A model generated the notes under the pieces. That model was not told the origin of the DNA. It saw only the letters and a program-made list of their open reading frames with translations, and searched no databases. The position numbers were made by a program, and so were the translations under genes. Of a stretch of DNA of 13,129 nt, positions 3,995 to 9,389 are shown in pieces. Origin of the DNA: Deltaproteobacteria bacterium (GTDB lineage: Bacteria > UBA10199 > DSSB01); assembly GCA_021414045.1 (NCBI GenBank), contig JAIOPF010000150.1, forward strand, positions 1 through 13,129. Reading direction: 5' to 3'. Every line of letters begins with the position of its first letter. Position 1 is the first letter of the stretch.

Positions 3995-4555
3995 ATGAAA
4001 GTTTTTTTTCGCAAACACGGTAACGCGGCATTCTACATCTTGCTGCCGGTATTTTTTCTCATCCTGACCGTCGCCTTCATTCAATTCACTCCGCGGGTTT
4101 CCCAAACGGCGCCCGGGGATACCTGTTCCAATGAAGATGAGTGTTGCACCGAAAGCGGTTGCGGAGCCGAGGCCAGCGAAGTTTGCGATGGCTATCTTTG
4201 CAAACCAGTCAACTTCGGTTGCCCTGAAGAGGGTGTCGAGCCTGACTTCCTTCCCGATGGCACTTGCATCTGCGGTAACCTCGATGACAACGGGGATGTC
4301 CAGCAAGGCGGAACCACTCCTTGCATCCAATGCCCCGCGGGTGAGTCCTTTGTCGGTGGCGCTTGCTTCCGCATTTGCCTTGAAGACGAAAGTCCCGATG
4401 GCAATAACTGCGTGAAGCTCGAAGGTAGCGGTATCCACATGGGTGGTTGCTCCCTCGGCGGCGATGTCGCCAGCGCTTCCAGCATGGCCCTTTTCGGATT
4501 TGGCGCCGCGAACCTCGCGTTCCTCAGCATCCGGGCCCGTCGCAAGAAGAAGTAA
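3995..4555 (+). CDS. Cys-rich, membrane-anchored surface protein with C-terminal sorting-type (CTERM-like) tail
   Basis: I do not recognise this 186-residue protein by name. It begins with a basic stretch and a long hydrophobic helix (about 11-31), a signal peptide or signal anchor. The central part (44-139) holds 14 cysteines, with C-x5-CC-x4-C, CxC and CxxC spacings. It is also rich in Asp, Glu and Gly, as in small extracellular disulfide-knit domains. The tail has three parts: a GGCSLGG motif (150-156, C152), a hydrophobic helix (about 163-179) and a basic end RARRKKK. This is the layout of C-terminal sorting signals such as MYXO-CTERM and related Cys-containing CTERM tags, which are cleaved and anchored by dedicated membrane proteases. 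The start is supported by AGAAGGAAAGG upstream, and a strong terminator follows. It is transcribed divergently from the glycosyltransferase cluster, so surface glycosylation of this protein is conceivable but unproven. Confidence 0.8.
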   Translation: MKVFFRKHGNAAFYILLPVFFLILTVAFIQFTPRVSQTAPGDTCSNEDECCTESGCGAEASEVCDGYLCKPVNFGCPEEGVEPDFLPDGTCICGNLDDNGDVQQGGTTPCIQCPAGESFVGGACFRICLEDESPDGNNCVKLEGSGIHMGGCSLGGDVASASSMALFGFGAANLAFLSIRARRKKK

Positions 4556-4577
4556 GCTACCTAGCTAAACAAATTCC

Positions 4578-4614
4578 AAGCCCATCCCGGGTCAACCGGG
4601 GTGGGCTTTTTTTT
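4578..4614 (+). terminator. Rho-independent terminator of the Cys-rich protein gene
   Basis: A 13-base-pair inverted repeat (4578-4590 with 4596-4608, one G-T wobble) encloses the five-base loop GTCAA. The stem runs into eight consecutive T residues (4607-4614). It lies 22 bases after the stop codon at 4555. The T run overlaps the stop codon of the convergent CLC gene (4613-4615). Read on the minus strand, the hairpin is followed by TTGGAATTT and not a U run, so it is mainly directional for the plus strand. Confidence 0.93.
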
Positions 4615-5893
4615 ATGGTATTTTCGGCGTTCCCAGGCGTTGAGCGGAGTAGATTCCGCTGTGTCCGCTGAAGAGGTAAGCGATGAAGCAGCCGGCCGCA
4701 TAGTAGATCGCGTAGGTGGGACCGAAGAGTTCAATCGCCATCACCGTGCAGGCGAGAGGCGTGTTCGTCGCTCCCGCGAAGATCGAGACGAATCCGATGG
4801 CGGCGAAGAGAGCCTGTGGGGCGCTAAGTAAGGTTGCCAAGATATTCCCCAGCGTCGCGCCAATGTAGAAGAGCGGAGTGACCTCGCCGCCTTTGAAGCC
4901 GCTGCCCAGCGTCACTGCGGTGAAGACCGTTTTCCACCACCAACTCCATCCATGCGCCCCACCGGCATGAAAGCTGGAAAGAATGGTAACGCTATCCGGA
5001 GAAGGCCCCGTGACGCCCAATCCCAAATAATCCCTAGTTCCCACCAGGTAAACCAGGACTATCACCAATAGACCTCCCAAGGCAGGACGCAGGTAGGGAA
5101 GCGGCATCGCCCAAGTGAAGAATCGCTTCAGGCCGTGGGTGAGTTCGGCGAAGCAGGCGCTGGCCAAGCCGAAGGCCGATCCAGCCACGAGGACTTTCGC
5201 GAAGAGCCACCAAAAGGCGGATGCGCTTTCGGGAAGTAGGCCAGGATTGACCAGGTCGGCGAGATGATACTGCGTGTGATGGATTCCCCAGGCGGCGCAA
5301 ACCCAATCGCTGACGATGGCCGCCAAGAGACAGGGCAACAGCGCCTCGTAATTCATTCTTCCGATGGTGAGGACCTCTAGGGCGAAGATGGTGCCGGCGA
5401 TGGGCGTTCCGAAGACGCCGCTGAATCCCGCCGCTATTCCCGCGGTCAAAAGAGTTCGGAGATCCGACCCGCGCAGTCCAAATAATTTGGCGAAGCCGCT
5501 CGCAAGACTTCCGCCCATCTGGATCGCCGTGCCTTCACGACCAGCGGAGCCGCCGAACAAGTGGGTGACGATGGTGCCAATCAGGATGAGAGGCGCCATG
5601 CGTCGAGGGACTCCGCCTCCGGGCTCGTGGATTTCCTCCATGAGCAGGTTGTTGCCGGATTCCACGGAACGGCCGAACCAATGATACAGAAGGCCGATAG
5701 CGACGCCGCCCATGGGCAGGAAATAAAGCAGCCAGGGGTGATCCCACCGTGCTTGAGTGACGACATTGAGCGAACCCAAAAACAAGGCGCAGGCCGAGCC
5801 GATGATGGCGCCGACGGGCAGGGTGATGGCGCACCATTTGCCGAAATACTTCGCCAGTTGCAGGTGCTCTCGGGGGTTCCAACGAAAAATCAT
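4613..5893 (-). CDS. eriCF: CLC-type fluoride/proton antiporter (CLC-F subclass)
   Basis: This is a 426-residue polytopic CLC-family transporter. The selectivity regions are those of the fluoride-specific subclass. SGNNLLMEE (79-87) replaces the GSGIP motif of chloride channels, and GREGT (118-122) replaces GREGP, with E120 as the gating glutamate. GFSGVFGTPIAGTIFALE (156-173), GGEVTPLF (335-342) and YYAAGCFIAYLFSGHSG (397-413, with the conserved tyrosines) complete the pore. CLC-F proteins export F- in exchange for H+ and protect cells from fluoride. I chose ATG at 5891-5893 because GAGGAG (5896-5901) lies just upstream. A longer frame opening at a GTG at 5954-5956 would start inside the leader hairpin and add 21 residues (MGVRPSTPNPKTSF...) unlike a CLC N-terminus. 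A fluoride riboswitch precedes the gene, which fixes both function and regulation. Spacing between the purine box and ATG is tight (two bases). Confidence 0.95.
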   Translation of the reverse strand: MIFRWNPREHLQLAKYFGKWCAITLPVGAIIGSACALFLGSLNVVTQARWDHPWLLYFLPMGGVAIGLLYHWFGRSVESGNNLLMEEIHEPGGGVPRRMAPLILIGTIVTHLFGGSAGREGTAIQMGGSLASGFAKLFGLRGSDLRTLLTAGIAAGFSGVFGTPIAGTIFALEVLTIGRMNYEALLPCLLAAIVSDWVCAAWGIHHTQYHLADLVNPGLLPESASAFWWLFAKVLVAGSAFGLASACFAELTHGLKRFFTWAMPLPYLRPALGGLLVIVLVYLVGTRDYLGLGVTGPSPDSVTILSSFHAGGAHGWSWWWKTVFTAVTLGSGFKGGEVTPLFYIGATLGNILATLLSAPQALFAAIGFVSIFAGATNTPLACTVMAIELFGPTYAIYYAAGCFIAYLFSGHSGIYSAQRLGTPKIP

Positions 5894-5972
5894 GGCTCCT
5901 CGCTTATTTTTTGAAAAACTTGTCTTTGGGTTTGGAGTCGAAGGACGCACTCCCACCCGCTTGGGTAGGAGT
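5894..5972 (-). promoter_or_regulatory. Expression platform of the fluoride riboswitch (competing hairpins)
   Basis: ACTCCTACCC (5972-5963) can pair with GGGTGGGAGT (5958-5949) around an AAGC loop, a 10-bp helix with one U-G pair. This helix consumes the 3' pseudoknot strand of the aptamer, so it excludes the fluoride-bound fold. The same GGAGT (5953-5949) can instead pair with a second ACTCC at 5938-5934. CTCC (5937-5934) is also complementary to GGAG in the ribosome-binding site (5899-5896). No U run follows the hairpin, so a standard intrinsic terminator is not evident. A translational switch is one reading. The pairings are seen; the mechanism is inferred. Confidence 0.6.
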
Positions 5973-6022
5973 CATCAGCCTGTTCTCGAAACAGGCGGTT
6001 CTAAGGCGGACTCCATCGCCTG
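5963..6022 (-). promoter_or_regulatory. Fluoride riboswitch aptamer (crcB motif)
   Basis: The minus-strand RNA reads GGCGATGGAGTCCGCC (6020-6005), a short AACC linker, then a 7-bp hairpin GCCTGTT/AACAGGC (5996-5990 with 5984-5978, loop TCGAG). TGATGACTCCTACC follows (5977-5964). The first helix is GGCG/CGCC (6020-6017 with 6008-6005). Its loop carries GGAGTC (6014-6009), which is exactly complementary to GACTCC (5973-5968) and forms the pseudoknot of this RNA class. The GGCGAUGG, AAC and GCUGAUG elements match the crcB-motif consensus. It lies upstream of a CLC-F fluoride exporter gene, the typical target. Fluoride binding with Mg2+ is expected to stabilise the pseudoknot and switch on expression. 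The call was made by eye, without a covariance model. Confidence 0.95.
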
Positions 6023-6043
6023 AAATGCCGAATCTAAGATCTT

Positions 6044-6071
6044 ATTTTGAGGGAGAAGGCGATTCTGTCAA
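6044..6071 (-). promoter_or_regulatory. Sigma70-type promoter for the fluoride-riboswitch/CLC-F transcript
   Basis: On the minus strand a perfect TTGACA (6071-6066) is followed, after 16 bases, by CAAAAT (6049-6044), a fair -10 box (four of six consensus bases). Transcription would start near 6037, about 17 bases before the aptamer. It lies right after the rhodanese stop codon (6088), inside an imperfect inverted repeat GATTCTGTC...GACAGATTC (6061-6083). The placement fits an independent transcript for the fluoride unit. Confidence 0.6.
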
Positions 6072-6087
6072 GGACAGATTCTCTAGC

Positions 6088-6525
6088 CTATTTGCCCTTG
6101 CCGGACAGGGAGGCGTAGCTGACGCCCTCGCCGTTGTCCTCGCTCACCGGCAGTCCTAAGTCTTTCCAGCCGGGTTGGGGCTCGCCGGTCTCGGGATTGC
6201 GACCGCCTCCGAAACCACCATAAACGTTGTAGAGGTTGGTATAGCCCTGTTGCGAAAGGATATCGCAGGCCTTTTGTGAACGCCCGCCGGCCTGGCAGCC
6301 GACGACCAGCTTTTTGTCTTTGGGGAGCACCGCCGCGGCAACCTTGTTGAAATCGGAATTGGGCTCCATCCCGTAAGACCCCTTGTGCATGATGGGGATG
6401 TTGATGGCCCCGGCGGGATGGCCGGCGGTGAATTCGGGAATCGACCGCACGTCGACGTAGACCGCCTCGGGTTCGCTGTCGAGGAGTGCCTTCGCTTCTT
6501 CGGGATTGATCTGTTGGATGCTCAT
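6088..6525 (-). CDS. Single-domain rhodanese-like sulfurtransferase
   Basis: The protein has 145 residues with one rhodanese domain. AVYVDVRSIPEFTAGHPAGAINIPI (21-45) is the classical N-terminal signature. The active-site loop is CQAGGRS (77-83), with C77 as the predicted persulfide-forming cysteine, so the domain looks catalytically competent. YNVYGGFGGG (99-108) follows as the usual C-terminal element. No signal peptide is seen, so it is probably cytoplasmic. The start is ATG at 6523-6525. The AGGAG eight bases upstream contains the last bases of the preceding gene's TAG stop codon (6537-6539), so the two are translationally coupled. As third gene after a siroheme nitrite/sulfite reductase, it probably handles sulfane sulfur or persulfides produced near sulfide formation. 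The exact donor and acceptor are unknown. Confidence 0.9.
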   Translation of the reverse strand: MSIQQINPEEAKALLDSEPEAVYVDVRSIPEFTAGHPAGAINIPIMHKGSYGMEPNSDFNKVAAAVLPKDKKLVVGCQAGGRSQKACDILSQQGYTNLYNVYGGFGGGRNPETGEPQPGWKDLGLPVSEDNGEGVSYASLSGKGK

Positions 6526-6536
6526 GAAAGGGGCTC

Positions 6537-7109
6537 CTAGAGGGATGCGAGCAGCGCTTCGAGGTCGAAGGGGCGCTCCGTTTGGACCGAGACGCCGAAG
6601 CGTTGCCTCGGATCGGGGTTGGGGATCATTTTAATGGCATTGCCCGGAAAGGCTTTCGAAAAGAAAGATTCGAAATCGCCCCGTAGCTCCGCCCATACTC
6701 CCGGCGTATTGGGGGCGATGCCGCGGTCGTTGATGGAAAATTCCAGTTCGCGGCGCGAAAATTTCAGTTTGCCTTCGAGGAGAGGGGCCGATTCCAGTTT
6801 CAAAGCTCCCTTCAAGACCGAGCGCAGAGCTTGGGTCAGCTTTTCGTTGTTGCTGCCTTCGAGCTTTGCCTTGCGGTTGTAGCGCAGGCCAAGCCGATGG
6901 CCCGTTTCGTCCATGCCGTAGTCCGCGGCTTCGCCGATCAGGACGATGCCGGGACCGGCGGGGACGTGCAGGTAGTCGGCCACGTCCAGCAATAGCTCGT
7001 CGCCCGACTGATCTTGGATCCAACCATGGAAGACGGGGGTGAATTTCTCTCGGTCCACGCCTTCGGAATTTTCGGCGAAAATTTTGACGTTGAGATGTTG
7101 AATTTCCAT
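6537..7109 (-). CDS. Conserved-looking protein of unknown function in siroheme reductase operon
   Basis: I do not recognise this 190-residue protein. It has no signal peptide, membrane helix or cysteine cluster (no cysteine at all in the translation), so a cytoplasmic, non-metal-centre role is likely. The N-terminal third (MEIQHLNVKIFAEN, then FHGWIQDQSGDELLLDVADYLHV at about 28-50) looks like a mixed alpha/beta fold. The middle includes LGLRYNRKAKLEG (73-85), and the C-terminus is PRQRFGVSVQTERPFDLEALL. It begins 12 bases after the reductase stop codon, with AAGGG (including part of that stop region) as ribosome-binding site. Its own stop codon forms part of the rhodanese ribosome-binding site. 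The tight packing argues for a function in the same pathway, for example reductase assembly, substrate handling or sulfur relay; this is inference from position only. Confidence 0.75.
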   Translation of the reverse strand: MEIQHLNVKIFAENSEGVDREKFTPVFHGWIQDQSGDELLLDVADYLHVPAGPGIVLIGEAADYGMDETGHRLGLRYNRKAKLEGSNNEKLTQALRSVLKGALKLESAPLLEGKLKFSRRELEFSINDRGIAPNTPGVWAELRGDFESFFSKAFPGNAIKMIPNPDPRQRFGVSVQTERPFDLEALLASL

Positions 7110-7121
7110 GCGGCGAATCCC

Positions 7122-9389
<2,268 letters not shown>

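Follow-up and report, generated by a model that had tools for sequence, protein, structure and literature searches.

A fluoride riboswitch associated with a CLC-F exporter gene

The window analyzed here is a stretch of 13,129 nt from the genome (G000) of an uncultured deltaproteobacterial lineage. On its minus strand, where all features lie unless noted otherwise, a promoter-like site is followed by a riboswitch aptamer, an overlapping hairpin, a Shine-Dalgarno-like element, and clcF (4613–5893), a 426-aa gene for a CLC-F type fluoride/proton antiporter. The initial annotation of this DNA had proposed a crcB-motif riboswitch at 5963–6022 with two helices, an exact pseudoknot, and the conserved GCUGAUG segment, and all of these elements were located when the region was searched with Rfam covariance models. 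The fluoride riboswitch model RF01734 matches positions 5959–6029 across 64 of its 64 positions, scoring 57.2 bits (E 6.3e-14) against a curated cut-off of 34. This is the single Rfam match in the window at E≤1, and a search of the genome returned the same copy as its sole RF01734 match.

Stem P1 is formed by GGCG (6020–6017) and CGCC (6008–6005), and P3 by GCCTGTT (5996–5990) and AACAGGC (5984–5978). The pseudoknot strands GGAGTC (6014–6009) and GACTCC (5973–5968) are exact complements, and GCTGATG is found within the aptamer. A second genome of the same genus, G002, retains the aptamer. There, P3 is kept; its loop differs, and one pair is changed on both sides (GCCC/GGGC vs GCCT/AGGC in the window). 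In its full-length match, both helices, its pseudoknot, and its position upstream of a fluoride exporter, the RNA resembles the known members of the crcB motif class (RF01734). It ends 65 nt ahead of the clcF ATG, on the same strand as this fluoride-related gene.

A TTGACA promoter had also been proposed. Such a site (6044–6071) is present, with TTGACA at 6071–6066 separated by a 16-nt spacer from CAAAAT at 6049–6044. It matches the consensus at 10 of 12 positions, and one site of this quality occurs between 5500 and 7700, compared with a mean of 0.4 in shuffled sequences. By consensus count alone, the promoter-like site is weak. Both boxes are kept in G002, where 13 of 13 positions of the −35 block and 7 of 8 of the −10 block are identical, while the remainder of the spacer (3/11) and the stretch ahead of the aptamer (6/13) agree far less.

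The encoded protein

Several lines of comparison assign the downstream gene to the CLC-F family. The protein carries the CLC family domain (PF00654, 244.8 bits; cut-off 24.8), and among 35 distinct PDB sequences matched, the top three are CLC-F fluoride/proton antiporters (E 8e-60 to 1e-58). ClcA comes next at E 7e-07, a gap of about 50 orders of magnitude. Published CLC-F signatures are GNNLI or GMGLI, GREGT or GREGV, and GEVTP (review PMC11139923). The GNN and GREGT selectivity motifs recognized earlier are indeed there, the first as GNNLL (5642–5656; GNN is residues 80–82), which departs from GNNLI by one conservative change, and the second with its gating glutamate at 5528–5542 (residues 118–122). 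Alignment also locates GEVTP (4874–4888; residues 336–340). Judged by domain, structural neighbors, and motifs, the gene is a clcF.

One could argue instead that the gene encodes a chloride-type CLC, which the riboswitch would serve for some other reason, since the only families named by Pfam and NCBIfam are Voltage_CLC and ClcA/ClcB-like ones. However, the NCBIfam scores fall far under their cut-offs (best 94.4 vs 482), and both the lead of the three CLC-F structures and the presence of GNN, GREGT, and GEVTP speak against this explanation, which we consider very improbable.

The closest structural counterpart, the CLC-F antiporter of PDB entry 6d0j, aligns with residues 23–420 of 426 (E 8e-60) and shares the GREG glutamate and GEVTP, but has GMN where the window protein has GNN. 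Some variation at this motif is seen among eight aligned relatives, of which five carry GNNLI and two carry GHNLI or GSNLI. A relative at 35% identity from genome G021 carries none of the three signatures.

An in-frame GTG at 5956, given as the start in the open reading frame listing, is unsupported. Because the nearest kin begin at a matching MPFRWNP, the start is taken to be the ATG at 5893, which is preceded by the Shine-Dalgarno-like GAGGAG (5896–5901), 2 nt away. The G002 equivalent of this element is GAGAGG. In that genome, three GTG codons between the hairpin and the ATG are out of frame, and a TAA stop lies 78 nt before the ATG. At its other end, the window protein is shorter than its nearest kin (P0002–P0007, 450–465 aa), with 24–39 tail residues missing.

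The same pairing of aptamer and exporter recurs among related genes. Of 65 loci fetched with the window protein, which are selected close relatives, some cut by contig ends, rather than an unbiased survey, 48 contain an RF01734 match, and in 44 it lies <300 nt upstream of the CLC-F gene. For CLC-F genes in general, a riboswitch association of about 30% is given in PMC11139923. Together, the RF01734 match, the CLC-F assignment, and these 44 relatives support the earlier reading of a fluoride-sensing riboswitch joined to a fluoride exporter. Such a unit is of a known kind and largely ordinary, and it adds a clean sensor and exporter pair from an uncultured lineage.

Other arrangements were encountered in the same collection. 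The RF01734 match lies at least 300 nt upstream of the CLC-F gene in L011, L022, L023, and L056. In L022 (1445–4338), about 180 nt separate the riboswitch from an ORF that looks enolase-like by eye and is directly followed by the CLC-F gene; the match in L023 is at the same place. Locus L034 from Hydrotalea (4332–6892) has a riboswitch and CLC-F gene followed by a short, possibly DUF190-like ORF, a Fluc-like ORF, and a universal-stress-like ORF (all by eye), and beyond these a second RF01734 match before a transporter-like ORF. Second matches occur near the same place in L024, L031, and L038. Some CLC-F relatives reach 600–660 aa through an extra C-terminal region, which in several is a PII-like DUF190 domain (checked for P0011).

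A hairpin that competes with the pseudoknot

The initial annotation called this unit complete. Its sensor and exporter parts stand, but the word goes slightly too far for the expression platform, which fits neither a canonical terminator nor, in any obvious way, a mask over the ribosome-binding site. What the leader does contain is a potential strand-exchange hairpin (5949–5972) with arms at 5972–5963 and 5958–5949 and a loop at 5962–5959. Its first arm takes in five of the six bases of the 3′ strand of the pseudoknot. This 10-bp hairpin, formed with the last strand of the aptamer, has a predicted energy of −18.0 kcal/mol in the window and −15.5 kcal/mol in G002, and its 3′ arm is identical at 10 of 10 positions between the two. 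When G-U pairs are allowed, the fit is better than expected from 300 shuffled linkers in both genomes (p 0.003 in each). A test restricted to Watson-Crick pairs finds neither leader outstanding (best match 5 bases; p 0.48 in the window, 0.58 in G002), because one G-U pair splits the hairpin stem.

Folding with ViennaRNA, which covers neither the pseudoknot nor the ligand, shows the whole leader to be more stable than 200 of 200 shuffles (z −2.86). The leader also holds a second GACTCC (5934–5939) complementary to the GGAGTC of the aptamer; it pairs with that strand in the unconstrained fold and is partly kept in G002. Ensemble energies are −55.6 kcal/mol unconstrained vs −46.4 kcal/mol with the aptamer constrained in the window, and −54.7 vs −44.8 kcal/mol in G002. 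This predicted gap of 9–10 kcal/mol could be closed by the 6-bp pseudoknot and the ligand, both of which lie outside the folding model. Overall, these results give the exchange hairpin fairly good support, but not any particular output.

A platform of the canonical terminator type was rejected: the overlapping hairpin is present, but no U-tract follows it, with T occupying three (window) or four (G002) of the next eight bases. Similarly, a pattern scan of 5500–7700 found no terminator-like site on the minus strand; four were found, all on the plus strand. The published transcriptional platforms of this class described in PMC13273304 end in a terminator with poly-U, whereas the window hairpin lacks one and is followed 3 nt on by UCCUU. 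According to the same paper, poly-U shrank to five pyrimidines when all variants were taken together, so a degenerate terminator stays conceivable by analogy.

Regulation at the level of translation has to be weighed as well. When the 3′ strand of the aptamer was tested for pairing in 44 kin leaders with G-U allowed, 31 gave p≤0.05, and in 29 of those 31 the paired stretch ends ≤12 nt from the ATG; these counts refer to mutually related leaders, to shuffles that keep base composition only, and to the next ATG string as the start. With exact pairing only, the number is 21 of 44. Five T among the eight bases that follow are seen in none of the 31 leaders; among the 13 leaders with nonsignificant pairing, three have at least five (L047, L048, and L055). 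In a separate case, L030 from Turneriella (2898–2976), a short hairpin uses a Shine-Dalgarno-like stretch before the ATG as its 3′ arm (p 0.06), and it is possibly a simpler form of the platform in the window.

Masking of the ribosome-binding site in the manner of these kin was rejected for the window on the basis of distance and two-state folds. The hairpin ends 55 nt ahead of the start codon in the window and 62 nt ahead in G002. When the aptamer is held closed, the mean predicted accessibility of the ribosome-binding site goes from 0.34 to 0.33 in the window and from 0.35 to 0.36 in G002, and for the leading two bases of the Shine-Dalgarno in the window the values drop from 0.30 and 0.34 to 0.15 and 0.19. 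One translational scheme would have a C-rich strand mask the Shine-Dalgarno in the absence of fluoride and the G-rich arm of the hairpin capture that strand when fluoride is present, thereby freeing the ribosome site. Both copies of GACTCC include CTCC, which could pair with the GGAG of the Shine-Dalgarno, and the 29 kin leaders give control of translation a precedent. Given the 55- and 62-nt distances and folds that predict no gain in accessibility, we regard a translational switch as possible but doubtful.

Proposed mechanism

We consider it highly probable (roughly 0.9) that this unit operates as an ON switch, responding to fluoride and controlling a fluoride exporter, judging from its sequence and the behavior established for its family. 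As RNA polymerase moves off the promoter, the aptamer would fold, and Mg-bound fluoride would lock the pseudoknot between GGAGUC and GACUCC, as expected for this family. Without fluoride, GGGUGGGAGU, which is made directly after the aptamer, would capture ACUCCUACCC by strand exchange and so break the pseudoknot. With fluoride, the hairpin would be blocked and CLC-F would be made, expelling fluoride in exchange for protons. A downstream hairpin that takes over a pseudoknot strand in this way is the mechanism described in PMC11077080 and PMC13273304.

How the hairpin would lower expression is a separate matter. Ranked first, at about even odds, is an early loss of transcription by hairpin-assisted pausing or a Rho-assisted stop rather than by a canonical U-tract terminator. 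An effect on transcription is favored because the hairpin directly follows the aptamer and is far from the start codon. A platform of this sort could extend what is known about how aptamers of this class are read out.

The lack of a recognizable standard expression platform in the leader could also be taken to mean that the aptamer is a carried-along remnant and that the TTGACA promoter drives constitutive clcF expression with little or no switching. Against this, the aptamer, the hairpin arm, and the promoter boxes are kept in two species, while only 3 of 11 spacer positions outside the −35 block are identical. This contrast suggests that selection has acted on the RNA, and we judge the remnant explanation improbable.

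Exchange of exporters at one chromosomal site

Upstream of the riboswitch, the window carries genes for a nitrite/sulfite reductase and a rhodanese, with a 190-aa ORF (6537–7109) between them. The order is the same in G002 and is kept in G001–G005, where the ORF shows 41%–65% identity; neither Pfam nor NCBIfam matches it at E≤0.001. On the far side of the rhodanese, genomes differ in the exporter. G002 has a glycosylase and a CLC-F gene in this slot, the latter divided between two contigs, the ends of which are 100% identical to protein P0002 over 57 and 59 residues. In G001, a genome of the same genus listed as 100% complete, there is no RF01734 match and no CLC-F relative with >28% identity. 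Beside its rhodanese are instead genes for a uracil-DNA glycosylase and Fluc, convergent with the rhodanese and without a riboswitch match. This pair (985–1995 of L135) fills the slot that the riboswitch and clcF occupy in the window (4613–6088).

Between G001 and G002, DNA identity is 92.5% over the segment that starts at the reductase and closes with the rhodanese, and 87.8% over the one running from a 396-aa ORF almost to the glycosylase end; the exporter between these segments differs. With 88%–92% identical flanks and different exporters, the two genomes give a close view of the mutual exclusion of Fluc and CLC-F, which occur together in about 3% of surveyed strains according to PMC11139923. 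Searches for Fluc returned no match in G000 (84% complete) or G002 (80% complete). In G003, Fluc adjoins the rhodanese, and in G004, a glycosylase and Fluc lie at the end of a contig, as would fit the same slot. The arrangement is not seen in G005, because its Fluc match and rhodanese are on separate contigs and the 618 bases past the rhodanese are without a match. Besides the window, this comparison covers G001–G005.

The window itself appears to have been altered further. A glycosylase search in G000 gave no match, and a U-tract terminator-like site on the plus strand (4578–4614), behind a convergent 186-aa ORF and 1.3 kb from the leader hairpin, has its T-run overlapped by the clcF stop codon (4615–4613). 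The missing glycosylase, the stop codon within the T-run, and the shortened C-terminus probably reflect a later deletion in the window lineage.

Exchange of Fluc and CLC-F within one genetic context is already known in principle because it has been published for streptococci (PMC11077948), in which one chromosomal neighborhood likewise holds either exporter type. Here, by comparison, a riboswitch accompanies the CLC-F allele, whose orientation is opposite to that of Fluc, and the lineage is uncultured. Among the papers listed, judged by title and the start of the abstract, we recognized none describing the exchange in other lineages.

A tree built from 244 columns of reductase C-termini in 22 rows places G001 and G002 in one six-row group (support 97/90) with the window outside, and in a CLC-F tree (41 rows), the window protein, P0002, and P0003–P0007 form one clade (100/100). 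The distribution of exporter types therefore disagrees with the reductase tree, and if Fluc is ancestral, we infer from these sequences that at least two exporter changes would be needed. More tentative, and on balance rather unlikely, is the broader proposal that riboswitch output in this lineage belongs to neither standard type, with a hairpin that lacks a U-tract and lies away from the start codon acting through pausing, Rho, or another factor, and that the cassette has been repeatedly swapped with Fluc in one slot. There are hints of a further CLC-F case: reductase P0134 groups with G004 in the tree, and P0007 and P0134 each reside on a 6618-base contig from the same source, equal sizes that may point to linkage of the two genes.
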